Source: Acidobacteriota bacterium (lineage in GTDB: Bacteria; Acidobacteriota; Terriglobia; Acidiferrales; UBA7541). Taken from it: a stretch of 34,254 bases of DNA. A model generated the notes under the pieces. It saw nothing but the letters and a program-made list of their open reading frames with translations. It had not been told where the DNA came from and did no database searches. Where the stretch lies: the NCBI GenBank assembly GCA_003224235.1, contig QHYU01000024.1, positions 1-34,254 on the forward strand, given 5' to 3'. A program made the position numbers and the translations under genes. Positions 1,990 through 34,254 of the stretch are shown here, piece after piece. The stretch's first letter is position 1; the number at the start of each line of letters is the position of its first letter.

Positions 1990-2044
1990 CATGTGCTCCG
2001 CCGAAATGGTGGAAGATGTCGCTGCGGTTCCAGGCGGCATGGCC

Positions 2045-2509
2045 CTACCGCTTATAAACGATTTTACCGTGCAGGACTGGAAAGTCCCTGCCAAAGAACC
2101 CGCCGACGAAGCCGCCAATAGCACCCAGCAGGATCGCTCCGCCGCCGCGGGTCAGCGTCTCGGGTTTCTGACTGGCGCCCACAGCCGCGCCGACGCCACC
2201 GCCGATTGCTGCCCCGAGCGCGGCATCAGCAGCCTCGCCATGTTCGAGACGCACTTCGCGGATACTTTGGCGGTCGAAGGTGAGTTGGGACGGACCGAAA
2301 GGGATGCGATGCTCCGCGGGGAGCTCACAGACCAGTTCATCGTGTGTCGCGCGCAGAAAGAAGCACATGGTGCGAAGGCGAACCTTTACTGAGATGCGGG
2401 AGCGGGGCTTCAGGCTCTCTACCGCTCGCCAGTTTCCAGTCTGTGCCTGCGCACTCGATGTAAAGATCAGGAGCGCAAGCATGCAATGAATGATTCGTTG
2501 GTGTCGCAT
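2045..2509 (-). CDS. Secreted glycine-zipper protein, function unknown
   Basis: The 154-residue product begins with a short charged N-terminus and a hydrophobic stretch ending SSAQAQ at about residue 23, a likely Sec signal peptide with cleavage after AQA. The middle part (about 25-90) looks like a small beta domain. Residues 95-145 are Gly/Ala-rich (ALGAAIGGGVGAAVGA, then LLGAIGGFVGGFFG), a glycine-zipper pattern seen in membrane-associating envelope proteins. It lies 61 bp downstream of the GntR gene on the same strand, with a strong palindrome between, so the regulator may control it. No good Shine-Dalgarno site precedes the ATG. I do not recognise a named family. Confidence 0.68.
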   Translation of the reverse strand: MRHQRIIHCMLALLIFTSSAQAQTGNWRAVESLKPRSRISVKVRLRTMCFFLRATHDELVCELPAEHRIPFGPSQLTFDRQSIREVRLEHGEAADAALGAAIGGGVGAAVGASQKPETLTRGGGAILLGAIGGFVGGFFGRDFPVLHGKIVYKR

Positions 2510-2551
2510 GGCAGCATGCTAGCGACAGGCTCGCGGCGGCAGGTACGAATT

Positions 2552-2575
2552 TGTGACACTTTCGCAAGTGTCACA
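2552..2575. promoter_or_regulatory. Perfect 10-bp inverted repeat at the 3' end of the GntR gene
   Basis: TGTGACACTT-tcgc-AAGTGTCACA is a perfect palindrome with a 4-nt centre. It overlaps the GntR stop codon (2571-2573) and lies 43-66 bp upstream of the glycine-zipper start. TGT...ACA ends are the kind of half-site GntR-type dimers bind. The minus-strand RNA would also form a strong hairpin, but the following bases are A-rich rather than U-rich, which argues against an intrinsic terminator. Confidence 0.5.
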
Positions 2576-3497
2576 TCGAGGGGGCGAGCGGGCTGCGGAT
2601 GAACTCCTCGTAACGCCGCAGCTCCGCCAGCGAAGACTCCGAGAGCAGGGGAAACACCACGGCGCGAGACGTTTTCGGCAATTCGGCGGCGGACACAGAA
2701 TCACAGACGACTGCCGCCGTCTGCTTTAGACCTCGTTGCCAATTCGGCTTCCGAGCATCCCGAAATACCAGGCCATCCGGATGGAATCCGGCGGCGATCA
2801 GCATGGTGCGAGCCAATCGCAGAAAGTCCGGCCACCGTGACGCAATGCCGACCAACGCGCCCGAAGGAGCCGGTAACCACCCGGTGAGAGAGGAGGGTAC
2901 CGAGCGAACACGCAGCGTCAGCAACTCGGCTTCAGCCGGCAGGGCCTGCCGCACGATCCTCGCCTTGCTCGGAAGCACGGCCGGAATGGCGCCTTCGAGT
3001 GCTTCGAGGAGATGGCCGTCGTTCAAGCTGCAGCTTCGGACCGGAAGAGTCACAGCCTGCTGCATCTCCGCGGCAACGATTCGTCTCAGTTCTTCATCCG
3101 GCTCAATCAGGAGGAAATGATCGGGCGGCTGCAATTCCAGCCACTGGCGCAGACGTGAGCGCACAGTGGATAGAGGAGCGCCCAGTCTGCGCGCCGAACG
3201 GAAGAGGTTCGCAATCAACTGGTCCAGTGCGAGTGCCGGCGAGAGCGGCACATCCGATTTCGTATCCCGGACATAGACGCCGCTTCCCCGGCGGAACTCA
3301 ACCCAACGCTCCCGCTCCAGTTGCCGATATCCTGCGCTGACGGTGTTGGGATGAAGACGAAACCGTCGCGCCAGCTCTCGAGTGCTGGGCAGACGCTGCC
3401 CGGGACGCAGGTCGCTGCACAAGATGCCCAGAATGACCTGCGTTACAAGCTGCTCGCGGAGAGAAACTTCGGTTCCATGAGCGAGCCAGAGTTGCAT
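2571..3497 (-). CDS. GntR-family transcriptional regulator with an unusual C-terminal domain
   Basis: The 308-residue product has an N-terminal winged HTH at about residues 8-77. Its landmarks are LRPGQRLPSTRELARRFRLH, NTVSAGYRQLERERW and the wing RRGSGVYV, all hallmarks of GntR proteins. The remaining 220 residues do not look like FadR, HutC or aminotransferase (MocR) effector domains. They contain alternating beta/alpha stretches (HFLLIEPDEELRRIVAAEM, then TAAVVCDSV) reminiscent of a periplasmic-binding-like fold. The downstream secreted protein and the palindrome at the 3' end make local control plausible. The start has no strong ribosome site but matches the expected beginning of the domain. 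Confidence 0.82.
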   Translation of the reverse strand: MQLWLAHGTEVSLREQLVTQVILGILCSDLRPGQRLPSTRELARRFRLHPNTVSAGYRQLERERWVEFRRGSGVYVRDTKSDVPLSPALALDQLIANLFRSARRLGAPLSTVRSRLRQWLELQPPDHFLLIEPDEELRRIVAAEMQQAVTLPVRSCSLNDGHLLEALEGAIPAVLPSKARIVRQALPAEAELLTLRVRSVPSSLTGWLPAPSGALVGIASRWPDFLRLARTMLIAAGFHPDGLVFRDARKPNWQRGLKQTAAVVCDSVSAAELPKTSRAVVFPLLSESSLAELRRYEEFIRSPLAPSM

Positions 3498-3590
3498 GCC
3501 GAAGTATTCTAAGCCTTGTGGACTGCTCGGAATAGCATTCGCGTCACGAATTACGAGTCTGCCTGGGGGAACGCCCTAACCGTCGACTCT

Positions 3591-3655
3591 GTAGCACAGC
3601 CACTCTTGGCTGTGCTTCGATATTCGCAACGCACAGGCAGGAGTGCCTGTGCTAC
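3591..3655. repeat. Composite intergenic repeat, module A (copy 2)
   Basis: This has the same outer arms as copy 1 (GTAGCACAG and CTGTGCTAC) and the same internal CCACTCTTGG and GGCAGGAGTGCC hairpins, but a slightly shorter centre. Together with 523-595 it brackets the hicBA/GntR segment as a direct repeat. Confidence 0.75.
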
Positions 3656-3660
3656 GTGGC

Positions 3661-3770
3661 CGCGACGACAGAGAGATTTCTCGGCCCGACGCGGGCCTCG
3701 AAATGACAAAGGAAAGCGAGAGTGAGCCTAGGTTTTGCTGGCCCTTTACGGCACGACTGAAGCCCGCCCG
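3661..3770. repeat. Composite intergenic repeat, modules B+C (copy 3)
   Basis: This starts with the same CGCGACGACAGAGAGATTTC as copy 1, with a short internal deletion in the GACGCGGGCC part. It runs into TTTACGGCACGACTGAAG and loses the right half of module C. It ends about 25 bp before the stop of the minus-strand MoaD-like gene. Confidence 0.72.
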
Positions 3771-3794
3771 CCCTTCCGTAACCAGTGCTGGCCC

Positions 3795-4091
3795 CTAGCC
3801 GCCGGCAATCGCCCCTATGATGAGAAGGGGCTCTGCCCCCGACGCGACCGCGTCGGGCAGCGGTGCGTCCGGCAGCTCATGGGAAAGATCCTCCTCGCAG
3901 GCGAAGAACCGCAAGAACGGTCGGCGCTGTTGCGTGACCTGATCGCGGATCGTCCCGCGCAGCATCGGGTAGCAGGCCTCGAGCGCGTCGAGGACCGAGC
4001 GCTGCGTGGCCTGACCCTCGACGTCGAGCTTCACCTCGCCGTCGACGCGCGCCAGCGTCCGCAGATGTGCCGGGAGTATGACTCGGATCAT
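3795..4091 (-). CDS. MoaD/ThiS-type ubiquitin-fold sulfur carrier
   Basis: The 98-residue protein begins [14 protein letters not shown]. It contains the family pattern [20 protein letters not shown]...LRG and ends IIGAIAGG, with the terminal Gly-Gly that is adenylated and thiocarboxylated in MoaD and ThiS. The residues [16 protein letters not shown] match the middle beta strand region. Its ATG (4089-4091) overlaps the stop of the upstream beta-propeller gene as ATGA, so the two are co-translated. No MoaE, ThiG or E1-like (MoeB/ThiF) gene lies nearby, so its acceptor is unknown. It could serve molybdopterin synthesis, another sulfur transfer, or protein conjugation. Family call is firm; role is open. 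Confidence 0.85.
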
Positions 4092-5266
4092 GGCAGTGTT
4101 TGGACCTCGACAGAAAGCACGCCCGGAAGATCTCGGACAATGGGGGTCCAGCTGTCTCCGGCATCGGTCGACGCGTACACCTGCCCGCCGGTGGTGCCGA
4201 AATACACCCCGCACGAATCGAGCGAGTCGACGGCCATCGCGTCGCGCAAGACGTTGACGTAGCAGTCGCGTTGCGGCAGACCTTTCGTGAGCGCCTCCCA
4301 CTCGTTTCCGCCCGTGCGGCTGCGGTACACGCGCAGCTTCCCATCTGGGGGAAAGTGCTCCGAGTCGCTCTTGATGGGGACGACGTAGATAGTCTCCGGC
4401 TCGTGCGCGTGAACGTCGATCACGAACCCGAAGTCCGTCGGCAAGTTTCCGCTGACCTCTTGCCACAAATCGCCGGCGTTGTCGCTGCGCAAGACGTCCC
4501 AGTGCTTCTGCATGAACAGCACACCCGGGCGCGAGCGGTGCATCGCGATGCGGTGTACGCAGTGGCCGACTTCGGCAGTCGGGTCGGGGATGTATTCGGA
4601 CTTCAGTCCACGGTTGATTGGCCGCCATGTCTTGCCGGTGTCGTCGCTGCGGAACGCGCCCGCAGCCGAGATGGCGATGAAGATCCGGCCGGGGTCGCTC
4701 GGATCCAGAAGGATCGTGTGCAGGCACATCCCACCGGCACCTGGCTGCCAGCGGGGCCCCGAGCCGTGGCCGCGCAGTCCGGCGAGTTCCTGCCAGGTCT
4801 GTCCGCCGTCGGTCGAGCGGAACAAAGCCGCGTCTTCAACCCCGGCGTAGACTGTGTCCGGATCGGTGAGCGACGGTTCAAGATGCCAGACTCGCTTGAA
4901 CTCCCAGGGGTGCTGCGTGCCGTCGTACCACTGATGCGTGGTGATGGGTTTGCCGGTTTCAGGAGAAGTGTCGTAGACGAATTTGTTGCTCGCGCCAGCA
5001 GGCATGCTGCCTGGCGCGGGTGTCGTCTCGCCTCCGGGCGCCTCCCACGTATTGCCGCCGTCGTTTGAGCGCTGGATGATCTGCCCGAACCAGCCGCTGC
5101 ACTGCGAAGCATACAGCCGGTTCGGGTCAGCGGGAGACCCCTTGACGTGGTAGATCTCCCAGCCCGCAAAATGGGGGCCACTGACCTCCCACCGTTCGCG
5201 CTTTGCGTCCGACGTCAGGACGAACGCGCCCTTGCGCGTGCCAACCAGTACTCGTACCTTGCTCAT
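4088..5266 (-). CDS. BNR/Asp-box beta-propeller protein (sialidase-like fold)
   Basis: The 392-residue product has at least five Asp-box motifs of the S-x-D-x-G-x-x-W type: SNDGGNTW (near 69), STDGGQTW (near 151), SDDTGKTW (near 208), SDNAGDLW (near 264) and STDAGDSW (near 370). Each closes a propeller blade, as in sialidases and in YCF48-like assembly factors. There is no signal peptide ([17 protein letters not shown]), so the protein is probably cytoplasmic, and the sialidase Arg triad is not evident. AGGAGG sits 8 nt before the ATG. It is translationally coupled to the ubiquitin-fold gene downstream, an association I recall from other bacteria. Enzyme activity is not supported; a scaffold or binding role is equally likely. 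Confidence 0.85.
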
Positions 5267-5358
5267 CTCTCACTCCTCCTGTGCTTCGCGTATGTACTCA
5301 TTCAGGTGATCGAAACTCTCCGTGCAGAACGGCCCACCATACTACACCCACTCGCAGG

Positions 5359-5754
5359 CTAACTTCGCAGAGGAACGAGCGCGCGCAGCCGGTCATCGCG
5401 CAAGTACAGCCCTGCCCAGACCAGCACGCCAAAAATGACCGGAAAGTAGAACGGTTCGCCGACGCGCACGTGGGTAGCCGTTGCGCCGCCAAGATAGGCT
5501 GTCATCAAGATCGCACCAAGAACGGAAGTACGCGGAATCACGTAGACGACAGTACAGGCGAGTTCGAGGATCCCGATGCGGAGAGCGAGGCTCTCAGGAT
5601 ATCCCAAGTGAGCGAATGCCTGCACGACAGGCGCCGGCTTCACCAATTTCATGGCGCCGCTGAAGAGCAGCAACAGCACCGGTAGCGCGCTAATGATACG
5701 TCCGGCCCAGAGCATCTTCTTCGAGACCGGAGCCGTTTGAGTAGCCGATTGCAT
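5359..5754 (-). CDS. DoxX-like integral membrane protein
   Basis: The 131-residue product has about four hydrophobic segments, at roughly 14-34, 50-75, 78-97 and 103-120. Its features (SGAMKLVKP near the first segment, HLGYPESLALRIGILELAC in the middle) are typical of the DoxX/DoxX-like group. Members often accompany redox- or thiol-stress regulators, and their biochemical role is poorly defined. A good ribosome site, GGGAGGAA, precedes the ATG. It is divergent from an HxlR-type regulator 108 bp away and 92 bp upstream of the propeller gene on the same strand, so it may head a three-gene operon. Confidence 0.8.
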   Translation of the reverse strand: MQSATQTAPVSKKMLWAGRIISALPVLLLLFSGAMKLVKPAPVVQAFAHLGYPESLALRIGILELACTVVYVIPRTSVLGAILMTAYLGGATATHVRVGEPFYFPVIFGVLVWAGLYLRDDRLRALVPLRS

Positions 5755-5823
5755 GAATTCTTCCTCCCGATGTATGGCGAACCAATGAGTGAGAAGTCCG
5801 CCGGGGTGAAACTATGCCATCTT

Positions 5824-5840
5824 ACTTGTGAAATGCAAGT
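5824..5840. promoter_or_regulatory. Candidate HxlR operator between doxX-like and hxlR genes
   Basis: ACTTG-tgaaatg-CAAGT is a perfect 5-bp inverted repeat in the 108-bp divergent intergenic region. It lies just upstream of a TATGCT -10-like element (5846-5851) for the plus-strand regulator. On the other strand it overlaps a TTGCAT -35-like element for the doxX-like gene. That position suits repression of both directions. Confidence 0.45.
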
Positions 5841-5862
5841 GAAAATATGCTAGTGTGGAAAT

Positions 5863-6300
5863 ATGCCGCAGAAGAGGCCGAGTCCAAAGCGGCGGTCGGG
5901 GTGTCCGCTGAACGCTTCCGTGGAGATTCTGGGCGATCGCTGGTCGTTGCTGATTATCCGCGACATGATGCTGCGAGGATCCCGAACCTACAAGGAATTC
6001 CTGGAGTCCTATGAAGGAATCGCGACGAACATATTGGCGGATCGCTTGGGTAAGCTGGAAGCTCATGGAATCGTTACCGCGGAACGAGACCCATCGGACG
6101 GGCGAAAGCTGATTTACTTGCTCACAGCCAAAGGAATCGGTCTTGCACCGGTGCTCACGGAAATGGTCCTGTGGGCAGCCGCGCACGAAGATACCGGTAA
6201 TCAAGCGCTTGTCCGGCAAATGCAAAAGGACAAGGAGCAATTTCTGGCTGCAGTGCGACAACGCTGGGCCGAAAAGACAATCCGTTCAATGGCTAACTAA
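5863..6300 (+). CDS. HxlR-family winged-helix regulator
   Basis: The 145-residue protein contains the HxlR signature: CPLNASVEILGDRWSLLIIRDM (from residue 14) with a Cys at the start, then FLESYEGIATNILADRLGKLEAHGIV and the wing ERDPSDGRKLIYLLTAKG. Family members sense redox or electrophile stress, commonly through that N-terminal Cys, and often repress a divergent oxidoreductase or DoxX gene, as here. The N-terminus is basic (PQKRPSPKRRSG). The leader is short, with only a weak GGAA ribosome site. Family call is firm; signal and targets are inferred. Confidence 0.9.
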   Translation: MPQKRPSPKRRSGCPLNASVEILGDRWSLLIIRDMMLRGSRTYKEFLESYEGIATNILADRLGKLEAHGIVTAERDPSDGRKLIYLLTAKGIGLAPVLTEMVLWAAAHEDTGNQALVRQMQKDKEQFLAAVRQRWAEKTIRSMAN

Positions 6301-6401
6301 GTCCGAGCGGGAGTCCTCGCAGGTGGATGGGATGACCCTTACCGCGGACGAAAGTTCTCGGCCCGTTTCCGTACGCTGCATGGTGGTCCCCTGGTCACTT
6401 T

Positions 6402-6431
6402 GGCGCCCGACTGAAGTCGTGCCCTGACGAA
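6402..6431. repeat. Partial module C of the composite repeat
   Basis: CCGACTGAAGTCGTGCCCTGACGAA matches the last module of the element at 1803-1918. It lies directly before the longest possible rsmB reading frame (GTG at 6434). That argues that the longer N-terminus is repeat-derived and that the true start lies further in. Confidence 0.55.
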
Positions 6432-6496
6432 CGGTGCTGCGACGGGGTCAGAGAGCGGCTATGCGCGGAGCTTCTTCTATGGTTTCATCTGAGGGC

Positions 6497-7894
6497 ATGC
6501 GCGTGACTGCGGCGCGGCAAATCGCGTTTGAAATTCTTCGGCGCGTGGAAACCGCAGATGCCTTTGCGGCTGACTTGCTACACGCGCGCTTGAGTGAAGC
6601 CAGCGCCCCGCGAAAGCGCGCAGATGCGGCCTTGGCGACCGAGCTGACCCTGGGTGTGCTGCGTTGGCAGCGCCTGCTCGATTTCCTGCTCGAGCGATAC
6701 GCGGGCCGGCGGGCTGCCGACTTCGACCTTGAGGTGCTCCTTGCGCTGCGCCTCGGGCTCTACCAGTTGCGATTCCTGACGCGCGTGCCCGCGCGCGCGG
6801 CGGTACACGAATCGGTTGAGCTCGTGAAGTGGGCGAGGAAGGGTTCTGCGGCGACACTGGTGAACGCGGTGCTGCGCCGCGCATCCTCTGAAAAAGAGAG
6901 CGCTGTTAACGCTCCGCTCGAGCAGATTGAGCAGCAATTGTCGCCCGACCTGCCTCCTGCCGAGCGGCTGGGGATTCTGTATTCGCACCCGACGTGGATG
7001 GTTGAGCGCTGGCTGCAATGCTTAGGCGTGGCGCGCACCAAGGCGCTACTTGAGACCGACAATCGGCCTGCACGCGTCATGTGCACGCTGCTGGACCCGG
7101 CGCATGCGGAGGGAGCTACTTCCGCGCTTCGCGAGGCCGGCCTAAGCATCGAGCCTGGCCGGATGCTGGGCTCGGCTTGGTCCACCCGCGGCGGCGATCC
7201 CACCGACACGGAAGCTTTTCGCCGCGGCTGGATCTCGATTCAGGACGAAGCCTCGCAGCTCGTCGCCCTGCTGCTGGACGCCGGTCCCGGCCGGTCGATA
7301 CTGGACCTCTGCGCCGCACCGGGCGGTAAGACCGCGGTGCTGGCTCGTGCAGCGGGGCCGCAATCGTTGGTAATTGCGGCCGATCGCCACTTGCACCGGC
7401 TGCGAGCGACAAAAACGAACCTGAATCGGTTGGGAGTCACCAGCGTCCACCTGCTGGCGTTGGATGCCACGACCCCGCTGCCACTCGCCGCAAGCTTTGA
7501 CCGCATCCTCGTCGATGCCCCGTGTTCCGGGACGGGCACGCTTTCCCGGAACCCGGAGATTCGCTGGCGCTTGGGCCCGAATGATCTAGCCGAATTCCAC
7601 CGGCGGCAGGTGGCGCTTCTTTCGAGCGCTCTCGATCGCCTCGCACCTGGCGGGCGGCTTGTATACTCTACCTGCTCGCTCGAGCCGGAAGAAAACGAGC
7701 AGGTCGTCGCAGAGGTACTGCGGGGCCGCCGCGAAATCCGGCGAGTTTCCGGCTTAGGCGTGGCCGCACTCAAGCCGCACCTTGCTCCCGGCGTCAACCC
7801 AAACGAGCTATTCGACCGAGAAGAGAATTTCCGCACTTTTCCGCCCGAGCACCAAACCGATGGCTTCTTTGCTGCTATCCTGGAGAGCCCATGA
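6497..7894 (+). CDS. rsmB: 16S rRNA m5C967 methyltransferase RsmB
   Basis: From the ATG at 6497 this encodes 465 residues, a usual RsmB length. An N-terminal NusB-like RNA-binding domain (MRVTAARQIAFEILRRVE to about residue 140) is followed by a Rossmann SAM domain. The SAM site is LDLCAAPGGKT near 268. The two reactive cysteines lie in DAPCSGTG near 340 and YSTCSLEPEENE near 391. The enzyme methylates C5 of a cytosine in helix 31 of 16S rRNA. The frame stays open up to a GTG at 6434, but that extension runs straight out of a dispersed repeat and is not family-like; ATG at 6479 is another option. It heads the plus-strand housekeeping block. Confidence 0.92.
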   Translation: MRVTAARQIAFEILRRVETADAFAADLLHARLSEASAPRKRADAALATELTLGVLRWQRLLDFLLERYAGRRAADFDLEVLLALRLGLYQLRFLTRVPARAAVHESVELVKWARKGSAATLVNAVLRRASSEKESAVNAPLEQIEQQLSPDLPPAERLGILYSHPTWMVERWLQCLGVARTKALLETDNRPARVMCTLLDPAHAEGATSALREAGLSIEPGRMLGSAWSTRGGDPTDTEAFRRGWISIQDEASQLVALLLDAGPGRSILDLCAAPGGKTAVLARAAGPQSLVIAADRHLHRLRATKTNLNRLGVTSVHLLALDATTPLPLAASFDRILVDAPCSGTGTLSRNPEIRWRLGPNDLAEFHRRQVALLSSALDRLAPGGRLVYSTCSLEPEENEQVVAEVLRGRREIRRVSGLGVAALKPHLAPGVNPNELFDREENFRTFPPEHQTDGFFAAILESP

Positions 7895-7900
7895 GAAAAA

Positions 7901-7918
7901 CCCGACTTCATCGGGCCT
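7901..7918. terminator. Weak hairpin after rsmB
   Basis: CCCGA-cttca-TCGGG follows the rsmB stop within about 10 bases and is preceded by an A-run, but no T-run follows. It is at best a weak terminator or processing site. The rest of the 208-bp gap to 8103 shows nothing clear. Confidence 0.2.
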
Positions 7919-8102
7919 CAGCAGCTGAAGCCGCTGAAGAGCTAAGGCAATTTTGGAACGGGAATAGGAACCGCCAGCGTCATGGCACAATCTCGGCTCG
8001 GTCCACAAACCCAGAGGTGGCGTTGAAGCGGCGATGCGGCACGTGCTAGTCTCGAAAGGCTGAGGGAGGCAAGCGGCAGGCGAATCCCCTTTCCAATTTC
8101 CA

Positions 8103-8939
8103 ATGGACATACTCGGACTGGGACGATCACTACAACGCAGCAAAACCGCGACGCAAGAGCACGAATCTCCGGCGTCGCAGGACCGCAAGACTGAGCCTCA
8201 GAAACCGCCACAACGGATGAATCTTCGCGAGCGATTTGAGTGGGTGCTGCGGATGGCGCTGCTGGTGTTTATCCTGGCCTCGGCATCATTTCTGAGCGCG
8301 ATCACGGCGATTCGTTTTGCCATCCACGGCCGCGAAGTCGTGATGCCCAACCTGGTGGGCAAGAAGGCCGCCGACGCGGAAAAGCTGCTGGCCTCGAAGG
8401 GCTTGGGGATGAAGGTTGCTGACCGCGTGTACAGCGAGCTGCCGTTGAACCAGGTGGTGCGCCAGAGTCCTGCGCCGGGGGTGCACATGAAGGTGACGCA
8501 GCAGGCCCATGTGGTGTTGAGCCTGGGCGCCCGCCAAGTGAATATCCCCGGCTTGGAGGGAAGAAGCCTCCGCGCAGCGCGGATCGAGCTGTTGGGCACA
8601 GGACTCCAGATAGGCGAAATCTCAAACATCTACTTGCCGGATTATCCCGCCGACTCTGTTGTGCAGCAGGACCCGCGGCCGGGCGCTTGGGGGTCGATCC
8701 CGCGAGTTAATCTGCTGGTATCGGGGGGAGCGCGGGAGCCGGCATTCGTGATGCCCCATCTGGTGGGTCTGAATCACGCCGAAGCACAGCGCCAGCTTGC
8801 CGCGGCGGGCATCCGGGTGGCCAAGGTCACCGTGGTGCTGGCCCCGGAATGGCCCCACGACACGGTCACTGATCAGACGCCGCCGCAGGGCAGCCGGGTC
8901 GCCGCCGGCAGCGGGGTTGAGCTCCAGGTGGCTGAGTAA
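8103..8939 (+). CDS. Single-pass membrane protein with three PASTA domains
   Basis: The 278-residue product has a charged cytoplasmic tail (1-46), one transmembrane helix (about 48-70, MALLVFILASASFLSAITAI) and three extracytoplasmic PASTA repeats. Each repeat has the V-P/M-x-L-x-G start and Q-x-P-x-G end: MPNLVGKKAADAEKLL...QSPAPG, IPGLEGRSLRAARIELL...QDPRPG and MPHLVGLNHAEAQRQL...QTPPQG. PASTA domains bind peptidoglycan fragments or act as spacers in Ser/Thr kinases and PBPs. No kinase or transpeptidase domain is attached, so this is a stand-alone PASTA anchor. An in-frame ATG at 8217 would remove the tail. It is followed by rpe on the same strand. Confidence 0.88.
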   Translation: MDILGLGRSLQRSKTATQEHESPASQDRKTEPQKPPQRMNLRERFEWVLRMALLVFILASASFLSAITAIRFAIHGREVVMPNLVGKKAADAEKLLASKGLGMKVADRVYSELPLNQVVRQSPAPGVHMKVTQQAHVVLSLGARQVNIPGLEGRSLRAARIELLGTGLQIGEISNIYLPDYPADSVVQQDPRPGAWGSIPRVNLLVSGGAREPAFVMPHLVGLNHAEAQRQLAAAGIRVAKVTVVLAPEWPHDTVTDQTPPQGSRVAAGSGVELQVAE

Positions 8940-31860: not shown

Positions 31861-32499
31861 ATGCTACGACGGCTTCTGACCGCGGCTCTCTTCGGGTTTG
31901 CTGGAGTGGGGGCAGGACTGGCTCAGGTGGATCCAGCTTCCCTGCCCTCTCGCGATGCGCACGAAGGCCTCTTGATCGCCGCCGATCCGTACACTGACCC
32001 CACACAGTACAAAGCGCGCTTCGGCAAAAAGACCCCCTACGAGGTCGGCATCTTGGCGATGGATGTGTACTTCCGCAATGATACCGACAAGCCTATTCGA
32101 ATAGACCTGGAAAGCATTCGGCTGCTGCTCGCTCCGCCCGACGTGGAGCGCCAGCGATTCAGAGCCCTTTCTGTCGAAGATGTCGCCGACCGCATTCTGC
32201 ACAAAGGAGGACCGAACCCCACTACCCCGCGGCGTCCCATCTCCATACCGGGCCGCGGACCGAACAAGAGCCGCAACAAGGAGTTAAATGAACTGGTGAT
32301 GGCGCTCCGCCCGGGCGCCTTTGAGATGGATATCCTGCCGCCGCGCTCGTCCGTGCATGGCTTCTTTTTCTTCGATGTGAATCACCGCTACGACTGGCTT
32401 CCCTACGCGAAGTTCTACGTGCCTGACCTGAAATTCATGGACACTAAGCAGCCGCTCCTCTTCTTTGAGGTGGACCTCTCCACCGCGCGCCCCCGCTGA
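31861..32499 (+). CDS. Secreted protein of unknown function
   Basis: The 212-residue product has a signal peptide (MLRRLLTAALFGFAGVGAGLAQ, likely cut after GLA). The mature part is predicted beta-rich: KTPYEVGILAMDVYFRNDTDKPIRIDLESIRLLLAPP suggests an immunoglobulin-like or NEW3-type fold, followed by a Pro/Arg loop (GRGPNKSRNKELNEL) and DILPPRSSVHGFFFFDVNHRYDWL. I recall similar proteins only in Acidobacteriota-type genomes and know no function. No Shine-Dalgarno site is evident. The last 85 or so codons recur downstream as a frameshifted copy at 33359-33620. It is divergent from the LPS operon. Confidence 0.72.
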   Translation: MLRRLLTAALFGFAGVGAGLAQVDPASLPSRDAHEGLLIAADPYTDPTQYKARFGKKTPYEVGILAMDVYFRNDTDKPIRIDLESIRLLLAPPDVERQRFRALSVEDVADRILHKGGPNPTTPRRPISIPGRGPNKSRNKELNELVMALRPGAFEMDILPPRSSVHGFFFFDVNHRYDWLPYAKFYVPDLKFMDTKQPLLFFEVDLSTARPR

Positions 32500-32739
32500 A
32501 TCGCGGGACTGCGCGCAAGCGAGCTGTTCGAGAGGTTTACGTCACCCCAGCGACACGAAAACAGCCTAGGTGTTATGCTTTTATTCAGTGATAACCTCTG
32601 ACATGACAGTTGCTTACACGAATCGGCGCCGACAGCAAACAGGAGGATAGGGGGGCGCGCCCGGTACTACGGTACTAGATGTTTGAGGCTTTACAAACAC
32701 TCCGTCACGGTACAACATGAACAGCGGGAGGCGCGTCCA

Positions 32740-33178: not shown

Positions 33179-33255
33179 CTTTCCGTAGCTCAACTGGGAT
33201 AGGGCAAAGTTTCCTCAACTCTAGGTTGGCGGTTCAAGTCCGCCCGGCCCTGCCA
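33179..33255 (+). pseudogene. Degenerate tRNA-Arg(CCT)-like sequence, 3' half intact
   Basis: The 3' half is tRNA-perfect: T stem-loop GGCGG-TTCAAGT-CCGCC (33228-33244), acceptor strand CGGCCCT, discriminator G and CCA (33253-33255). The D arm GCTC...GGGC and a CCT anticodon loop (33211-33217) are recognisable. However, the anticodon stem has an A-C mismatch, position 37 is a pyrimidine, and the 5' acceptor strand (CTTTCCG) pairs at only three of seven positions. It is probably non-functional: a decayed tRNA or an attachment-site copy of a tRNA 3' end. Confidence 0.6.
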
Positions 33256-33358
33256 GCCACCACTACACGCCAAGTCGCATCATTCCTTGCACAGCGGCCA
33301 TCCGGATGTCATCCGCTCGCCACCAGTGCGCCCACCGCAAAGCTGGCGAAAAAGACGG

Positions 33359-33620
33359 CCCATCTCGATACCGGGCCGGGGACCGAACAAGAGCCGCAAC
33401 AAGGAGTTAAATGAACTGGTGATGGCGCTCCGCCCGGGCGCCTTTGAGATGGATATCCTGCCGCCACGCTCGTCCGCATGGCTTCTTTTTCTTCGATGTG
33501 AATCACCGCTACGACTGGCTCCCCTACGCGAAGTTCTACGTGCCTGACCTGAAATTCATGGACACTAAGCAGCCGCTCCTCTTCTTTGAGGTGGATCTCT
33601 CCATCGCGCGCCCCCGCTGA
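33359..33620 (+). pseudogene. Truncated, frameshifted copy of the 31861 secreted gene's 3' end
   Basis: Bases 33359-33620 align with 32236-32499 almost base for base, from the Pro/Arg loop (GRGPNKSRNKEL) to the stop codon. A 2-nt deletion (GTCCGCATGG for GTCCGTGCATGG) shifts the frame in the middle. No signal peptide or start is present. Similarity continues about 35 bp past the stop (CGCAAGCGAACTGTTCG against CGCAAGCGAGCTGTTCG). It is a duplication remnant and is not expected to make the protein. Confidence 0.85.
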
Positions 33621-33631
33621 ATGGTGGGACT

Positions 33632-33659
33632 ACCCCGCAAGCGAACTGTTCGGCGGGGT
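33632..33659 (+). terminator. Hairpin after the duplicated gene end
   Basis: ACCCCGC (33632-33638) and GCGGGGT (33653-33659) form a perfect 7-bp stem with a 14-nt loop, followed by TCTTGCTT. The T content after the stem is modest. The equivalent place after the full-length gene (about 32505-32535) lacks this stem. Confidence 0.45.
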
Positions 33660-33680: not shown

Positions 33681-33710
33681 GAGCCCGTGACTGACTGCCT
33701 TGACGGGCTC
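33681..33710. promoter_or_regulatory. Inverted repeat overlapping the tRNA-Glu promoter
   Basis: GAGCCCGT (33681-33688) and ACGGGCTC (33703-33710) are perfect 8-bp arms. The right arm covers the end of the candidate -35 TTGACG. This could be a terminator stem for upstream transcription or an operator. Confidence 0.35.
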
Positions 33711-33729
33711 AGCCGTTCCACGCTATAAA
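33700..33729 (+). promoter_or_regulatory. Strong sigma70-type promoter
   Basis: TTGACG (33700-33705) and TATAAA (33724-33729) are separated by 18 nt. Both differ from consensus by one base. The only downstream plus-strand unit is the tRNA-Glu 5' half at 33826, about 90 nt after the expected start, so this is probably the original tRNA promoter. Confidence 0.55.
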
Positions 33730-33825
33730 AATGTCTGCCATTTTCGGTGGCCTCGCTTCAGCACACGGGCCGCCTTTCCGGAGTTTGTGCCGAGTCCCCT
33801 CAGCTTCGGGAGTGAGCCCGACCGA

Positions 33826-33865
33826 GGCGGTATCGTCTAGGGGTTAGGACGCCAGATTCTCAATC
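33826..33865 (+). pseudogene. tRNA-Glu(CTC) 5' half, truncated
   Basis: GGCGGTA, TC, D arm GTCT...GGAC with AGGGGTTA in the loop, then stem CCAGA and loop TTCTCAA (anticodon CTC, 33859-33861) match a bacterial tRNA-Glu. The expected stem partner TCTGG reads TCGAG, and no T arm or acceptor 3' strand follows; the DNA instead becomes CAGCACCCCCGTCAATCG. The tRNA is therefore cut just after the anticodon loop, a known type of integration position. Confidence 0.65.
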
Positions 33866-33902
33866 GAGCAGCACCCCCGTCAATCGCTGATTCTTAAGGC
33901 AC

Positions 33903-33934
33903 TTAGGGTAGGCTACGTTAGGCTAAATTAGGCT
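33903..33934 (+). repeat. Helically phased TAGGCT direct repeats
   Basis: TAGGCT occurs at 33909-33914, 33919-33924 and 33929-33934, exactly 10 bp apart. A related TTAGGG lies at 33903-33908. Spacing of one helical turn places the motifs on one face of the DNA, as in protein-binding arrays. Confidence 0.55.
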
Positions 33935-33941
33935 GTTTTTT

Positions 33942-33984
33942 GGCCCGTTAATAAAAAGTCAGTGAAAAACTGACAGGACGGGCC
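33942..33984 (-). terminator. Nested hairpin between the repeats and the last gene
   Basis: The inner stem is GTCAGT-gaaaa-ACTGAC (33958-33974). The outer stem is GGCCCGT (33942-33948) with ACGGGCC (33978-33984). Reading the minus strand, the hairpin is followed by an A6 run (T6 on plus at 33936-33941), so no U-tract. On the plus strand it is preceded by T6. It may terminate minus-strand transcription from 34016-34234 or be a recombination or regulatory structure. Confidence 0.45.
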
Positions 33985-34015: not shown

Positions 34016-34234
34016 TCAGCGATAAGGGCCGAGTTCCTGAAGCACTTTGATTAGGTCAGGGATTGCCGACCCTGCCACCTCGACCTTCTTCTCTGGGTTC
34101 TCTGCATACCGGATCGTGACCTTCGTACCGTCCTCGGATTTCTCCACTTCATAGATTGGCTTGCTTCCCGCAGCAATCGTGAAGGTTCTGGCCCTACTGT
34201 CGGCAGTAATCGTGTACGTTCCGTTTGTTGGCAT
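34016..34234 (-). CDS. Small hypothetical protein, 72 aa
   Basis: GGGGGAG lies 8 nt before the ATG, supporting the start. The product (MPTNGTYTITADSRARTFTI...KPIYEVEKSEDGTKVTIRYAEN) is predicted to be mostly beta strand, ending in a short helix PDLIKVLQELG. It has no signal peptide and no recognised family. It lies beyond the truncated tRNA-Glu and may belong to an integrated element that continues outside the window. Lower GC than the core genes supports that. Confidence 0.5.
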   Translation of the reverse strand: MPTNGTYTITADSRARTFTIAAGSKPIYEVEKSEDGTKVTIRYAENPEKKVEVAGSAIPDLIKVLQELGPYR

Positions 34235-34254
34235 CGCTTCTTCTCCCCCGCATC

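Follow-up and report, generated by a model that had tools for sequence, protein, structure and literature searches.

What has happened to a tRNA gene that keeps its promoter and its 5′ half and then stops just past the anticodon loop? The question is raised by a tRNA-Glu(CTC) gene near the end of a 34,254-nt stretch of Acidobacteriota DNA (QHYU01000024.1; the window), which is the entire contig C123 of a 237-contig assembly (genome G000). The truncated gene is followed by phased TAGGCT repeats and a hairpin. Our answer is that the window very probably closes with the orphan (left) end of an integrated element, which a tyrosine integrase placed in the anticodon loop of this tRNA. The element would be of the 5′-type, in which the tRNA 5′ portion of the rebuilt gene comes from the element and the host's own 5′ fragment is left at the far end. 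We assign the window to this type because relatives have the same kind of orphan end and the same layout of arm-type and period-10 repeats.

A truncated tRNA-Glu gene behind an intact promoter

The first 40 nt of the tRNA in the window match the intact tRNA-Glu(CTC) gene of the same genome (G000:C190:6267-6341) exactly. The first mismatch is at nt 41, as it is in the same-genus genome G001, and from 33866 onward the DNA is unrelated to tRNA-Glu. Neither a T arm nor an acceptor 3′ strand was found after 33865 in the remaining 390 bp of the contig, which terminates at 34254, and ARAGORN reported zero tRNAs over the window. A first-pass annotation of the window had described a tRNA-Glu(CTC) cut after the anticodon loop, with loss of the T arm and the 3′ end, behind a TTGACG-18-TATAAA promoter. 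Both descriptions were correct, and the same promoter is conserved at G000:C190 and on contig C267 of G001. An intact tRNA-Glu, which the annotation had suggested looking for elsewhere in the genome, is the C190 gene; it adjoins a queF-like gene. A trait of 5′-type islands, an orphan tRNA 5′ fragment with a host promoter at one end, is present in the window (33700-33865) and in G001:C267.

The same junction in a second genome

The order on G001:C267 is queF, promoter, tRNA-Glu 5′ half and then sequence resembling that of the window (73% identity over 145 bp). The breakpoint falls at the same nucleotide as in the window, here at the native queF-linked tRNA-Glu, and the intact queF-linked locus of G000 is the element-free state of that site. 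On a separate contig of G001 (C98), a gene for a 392-aa tyrosine integrase (764-1942; Phage_integrase 1.5e-18, PHROG integrase 2e-48) runs into an intact tRNA-Glu (1921-1995), its stop codon falling within the 5′ end of the latter. We infer that C267 and C98 carry the two ends of one element. An open reading frame (ORF) of the excisionase family HTH_17 is close to the integrase gene, and together with the period-10 repeats described below it provides a candidate excisionase and candidate sites for it.

A 6.6-kb stretch of C98 downstream of the rebuilt tRNA-Glu (1996-8636) contains a ChrB-like gene and terminates in a tRNA-Glu 3′ fragment (nt 22-75). This segment is apparently a 3′-type element, defined by its use of the tRNA 3′ half, that flanks the rebuilt tRNA-Glu on the opposite side.

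Complete elements with both ends on one contig

Seven elements of 3-39 kb were recovered on single contigs. In each, one end carries an integrase gene and a restored tRNA, and the opposite end carries an orphan tRNA 5′ half. They occupy tRNA-Gln (38.5 kb), tRNA-Met (7.3 kb), tRNA-Thr (14.1 kb), tRNA-Asn (3.2 kb) and tRNA-Leu (12.3, 19.9 and 13.4 kb). The Gln element carries a type I restriction-modification system, and phage-like and metabolic genes are found in others. The orphan halves span nt 1 to ~39-43, and in clean cases the identity of the two copies ends at nt 39-41, just past the anticodon loop. The annotation's proposal that an integrated element ends at the disrupted tRNA is supported by these homologous elements, which have an integrase at the far end, and by the junction and arm repeats of G001.

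We also scanned the 120 bp upstream of the tRNAs for promoters. A near sigma-70-like promoter was present at none of eight rebuilt tRNAs and at three of eight orphan ends (p<0.05); the window's own promoter, ~97 bp upstream of the tRNA, lies only partly inside such a 120-nt scan.

Other integrase 3′ end remnants or a further 5′ half were observed upstream of the orphan at two loci, L086 (G011:C39 ~21421) and L091 (G013:C12 ~96764-97636), which suggests that a single tRNA has been the target of tandem or successive integrations.

Repeats on both sides of the core

The three TAGGCT repeats of the window start at 33909, 33919 and 33929, in the exact 10-bp steps that the annotation had reported. 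They are the sole perfect set of three 6-mers with period 10 in the window. Their score of 18/18 was reached in none of 1000 dinucleotide-preserving shuffles of the 120 nt past the junction, the best shuffle scoring 14; given this result and their uniqueness in the window, the repeats are not a product of chance. The annotation had placed them within 40 bp of the cut. They are indeed close to it, but the distance was understated, the first TAGGCT beginning 44 bp past the junction. Period-10 repeats recur at this position, on the orphan side between the core and the arm-type repeats, with a mean z of 3.4 over nine left ends, while no other period from 7 to 14 exceeded 0.8.

The arm-type repeats are tandem, 11-12 bp repeats located at the ends of the elements. 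The left and right ends of one element share a common tandem repeat pair in the same orientation, exemplified by TGATACAAAACTGATACAAAAAC in the Asn element and by the AGTGAAAA pairs in G001. Own-pair repeat scores were higher than all 500 shuffles in five of eight elements and higher than all but 4 in a sixth. Tandem repeats of period 11 were present upstream of the tRNA in 16 of 27 5′-type loci (z>2). From tRNA to arm, the left ends of the window, G001, G092 and G381 align nearly free of gaps, and CAGTGAAAA of the window is in register with the GTGAAAA pairs of the other three. CAGTGAAAA also matches the right-arm repeat of G001 with a score of 14, and 1 of 500 shuffles was as good. Arm-type repeats on both sides of the core, a trait of lambda-type sites, are present in the complete elements, and one side is visible in the window.

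The annotation had likened the TAGGCT repeats to arm-type recombinase sites or excisionase sites. Judged by place and spacing, they are best read as putative binding sites of an excisionase. The arm-type assignment does not hold for them and passes instead to the (A)GTGAAAA pair in the hairpin region, the putative arm-type repeats of the integrase. The two-tier hairpin that had been described has both of its stems and overlaps the arm-type site. The pairing is not conserved in the left ends of G001 and G092, and the hairpin was rejected as a functional element because it is not kept there. On the minus strand, the inner stem followed by TTTTTATT looks like an intrinsic terminator of a 72-aa ORF. 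The coordinates of all features are collected in Table 1.

Table 1. Features around the truncated tRNA-Glu(CTC) gene of the window
Feature	Position	Strand	Basis
Duplicated tRNA-Glu promoter region and tRNA 5′ half	33687..33865	+	85% identical to intact C190 locus
Putative host sigma-70-like promoter of tRNA-Glu, TTGACG (33700-33705)-18 bp-TATAAA (33724-33729), now driving a half gene	33700..33729	+	read directly
Orphan tRNA-Glu(CTC) 5′ half, nt 1-40: D arm, anticodon stem 5′ strand, anticodon loop	33826..33865	+	100% to C190 intact tRNA-Glu
Predicted strand-exchange (core) region: anticodon loop TTCTCAA (33857-33863) and flanking core half-sites	33852..33868	+	orphan/restored identity ends at nt 39-41 in clean cases
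Three TAGGCT direct repeats, period 10; putative excisionase (recombination directionality factor, RDF) sites between core and arm-type sites	33909..33934	+	repeat statistics
Two-tier hairpin	33942..33984	.	GGCCCGT 33942-33948 with ACGGGCC 33978-33984; GTCAGT 33958-33963 with ACTGAC 33969-33974; z -6.6
Putative integrase arm-type sites: CAGTGAAAA (33960-33968) and degenerate copy ~12 bp upstream	33948..33968	+	register alignment
72-aa ORF, first gene inside the element	34016..34234	-	ORF call

Integrases beside tRNA 5′ ends across the class

The G001 integrase was used as the query in a search of 399 genomes of the class, and the flanks of the integrase genes were read. At 27 loci the integrase gene is on the same strand as an intact tRNA and generally 5-70 bp upstream of its 5′ end (a few ORFs run into the tRNA and one is 123 bp off), and at 25 loci an integrase of the same superfamily faces the tRNA 3′ end (3′-type); the sample was drawn with a 5′-type query, so that 27 versus 25 are not population frequencies. 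The nearest relatives of the integrase lie just upstream, on the same strand, of intact Gln, Met, Thr, Asn, Glu and Asp tRNAs. On the integrase tree the 5′ and 3′ labels are clustered, with 8 changes versus 16.3 in shuffles (0 of 500 were as low), and one 16-row clade holds 12 5′-type and 1 3′-type. Well-supported branches of the tree force at least five orientation changes. Among viral contigs, neither a relative of the integrase nor a match to the tRNA-half pattern was found; phage integrases were only ~24% identical.

These loci may represent a large lineage of acidobacterial tyrosine integrases in which targeting of the 5′ half is the default, the arm-type sites lie at or within the 3′ end of the integrase gene and the rebuilt tRNA is driven only by transcription through that gene. 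We consider this broader proposal evenly balanced between being right and being wrong. If true, orientation would have switched several times in one integrase family, and the supply of a tRNA would hang on the element's own transcription.

Proposed integration and excision

The attachment site of the circular element would consist, in order, of the 3′ end of the integrase gene with its tandem arm-type repeats, the copy of the tRNA 5′ half, the anticodon-loop core, the phased excisionase sites and the second arm-type pair. The integrase would cut at the anticodon loop. The element's 5′ half and the host's 3′ half would then form an intact tRNA directly downstream of the integrase gene, and the host promoter and 5′ half would be left orphaned at the far end. 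At the junction in the window, the core half-sites would be the host's on the left and the element's on the right, with the exact cleavage points predicted from the end of identity. For excision, the excisionase would bend the left arm. The rebuilt tRNA would be transcribed from within or upstream of the integrase gene.

Alternative explanations

The truncated gene might be a plain pseudogene, a duplicated tRNA-Glu cut when an unrelated deletion or rearrangement took place, the repeats and the hairpin being incidental. The promoter region duplicates the one at C190 with 85% identity, other duplications and a decayed tRNA-Arg are nearby, and the contig end is close. We nevertheless consider this origin very unlikely, since in G001 a different locus shows this breakpoint with the same sequence after it, the spacing from core to arm is nearly gap-free against three other elements, and both the period-10 and the arm repeats recur.

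Slightly less probable still is the degenerate or rearranged end of a conventional 3′-type element. Same-superfamily integrases of that orientation occur at 25 loci in these genomes, and G001 has a tRNA-Glu 3′ fragment 6.6 kb downstream of its restored gene. A 3′-type insertion, however, would keep the promoter and the 5′ half joined to a rebuilt 3′ half, while here the 5′ half is orphaned as in the seven complete 5′-type elements. It would also displace a 3′ half beginning at the anticodon loop with a changed preceding base, and none was found in 89 genomes of the family. The lack of any orphan tRNA 3′ half in these 89 genomes is what is expected of 5′-type elements.

We give hardly any credence to an assembly chimera: the junction is 390 bp from a contig end in a 237-contig assembly, but a separately assembled genome of the same genus has it at the same nucleotide. 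Equally improbable is a group I intron or another RNA element; bacterial tRNA introns are located in the anticodon loop and a stable hairpin comes next, but Rfam gave no intron match, the 390 bp left in the contig contain no 3′ exon, and the relatives hold kilobases of genes and an integrase in between.

Several observations weigh against the orphan end of a 5′-type element, the reading that we prefer. The G000 assembly lacks the integrase and the rebuilt tRNA of the window's element, and the locus is a second tRNA-Glu copy without a known element-free counterpart. The first arm-type site of the window is degenerate, and, at the window sizes used, two of the eight elements did not pass the shuffle test when their own arm pairs were compared. 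A visible orphan is absent in about half of the tested 5′-type loci; most of these lie on short contigs, although 31 kb are available at one of them. The functions of the promoter and of the sites are assigned from sequence patterns and position.

The uvrD ortholog that comes next after this locus in G001 was not found in the G000 assembly, and the right flank is not walkable. The only related integrase in G000 (C222 4836-5914, locus L079; 51% identity) has no tRNA nearby, and its stop codon is followed by ATGCAA-type repeats; an excisionase-like ORF seems to run divergently to it. With no tRNA in the locus and with other repeats, it is probably not the integrase of this element.

Comparison with known elements

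In the site used by phage lambda Int and Xis, a core with a 7-bp overlap is flanked on either side by arm-type repeats, and the excisionase sites lie on the arm distal to the integrase gene. The elements described here likewise have arm-type sites flanking the core and putative excisionase sites on the distal arm. Unlike lambda, their target is a tRNA anticodon loop and the arm on the integrase side is fused to a tRNA 5′ half.

Reversed, 5′-type tRNA islands are already known and are rare. The Islander database has 159 islands with a 5′ fragment of the tRNA gene (tDNA) compared with 3760 with a 3′ fragment (PMC4383910), and a reversed element was reported by Zhao and Williams in 2002 (J Bacteriol 184:859), as that work is cited in PMC6563490. 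In these islands and in that element as cited, as here, the tRNA 5′ portion comes from the element and an orphan 5′ fragment lies at the far end. What differs here is that a whole acidobacterial integrase lineage is involved, that at least six tRNA identities are used and that the arm-type repeats are found at the 3′ end of the integrase gene or close to it. In archaeal pTN3-like elements the rebuilt tRNA is said to be expressed from the integrase promoter, and pTN3-type integrases are described as suicidal, the gene being split on integration (PMC8371274). In contrast, the integrase gene stays whole in the elements seen here, which are acidobacterial and not archaeal. Fionnbharth-type mycobacteriophages, whose lysogeny is tRNA-dependent, carry a whole separate tRNA gene (PMC10865867). 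The likeness to them is the short common core in a tRNA, where integration removes the host tRNA unless the element compensates; here it is a half tRNA at the attachment site that would rebuild the gene. No description of an acidobacterial lineage of this kind was found in the literature searched, the coverage of which was partial.

The 5′-type accounts for only ~4% of the tRNA islands that one database has mapped, and little work has addressed expression of the rebuilt tRNA. An integrase family with both orientations (27 + 25 loci) and many complete single-contig elements allows one to ask how orientation switches, and whether the supply of a host tRNA becomes tied to integrase transcription. 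For annotation, an integrase gene ending within ~70 bp of the 5′ end of a same-strand tRNA marks the end of an element.

Other features of the window

Most of the window is ordinary chromosome, with kdtA, lpxK, comEC, nadC and a valyl-tRNA synthetase-like gene; lipopolysaccharide genes and kdtA are located toward the end. This core chromosome content and the absence of a terminal overlap rule out that the window is a circular contig or the attachment site of a circular element (attP).

The 72-aa ORF had no match in Pfam, PHROGs or NCBIfam. At G005:C32 6668-6835, 5′ of an intact tRNA-Cys, there is a relative at the DNA level (70% identity over 169 bp) that may be cargo of a comparable element; the 20 kb read there contained no orphan half of tRNA-Cys.

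A decayed tRNA-like stretch at 33184-33255 scored 23.7 bits with the Rfam tRNA model, below the threshold. It is 84% identical to the intact tRNA-Arg(CCT) at G000:C92:746-822 and forms a tRNA-Arg remnant ~570 bp ahead of the tRNA-Glu half. This remnant is contained in a ~0.8 kb insert flanked by two copies of a 298-bp direct repeat (32233-32530 and 33356-33652; 95% identical), the unit of which is the 3′ part of the ORF at 31861-32499 and the second copy of which has a 2-nt deletion. The region looks like another old insertion or duplication.
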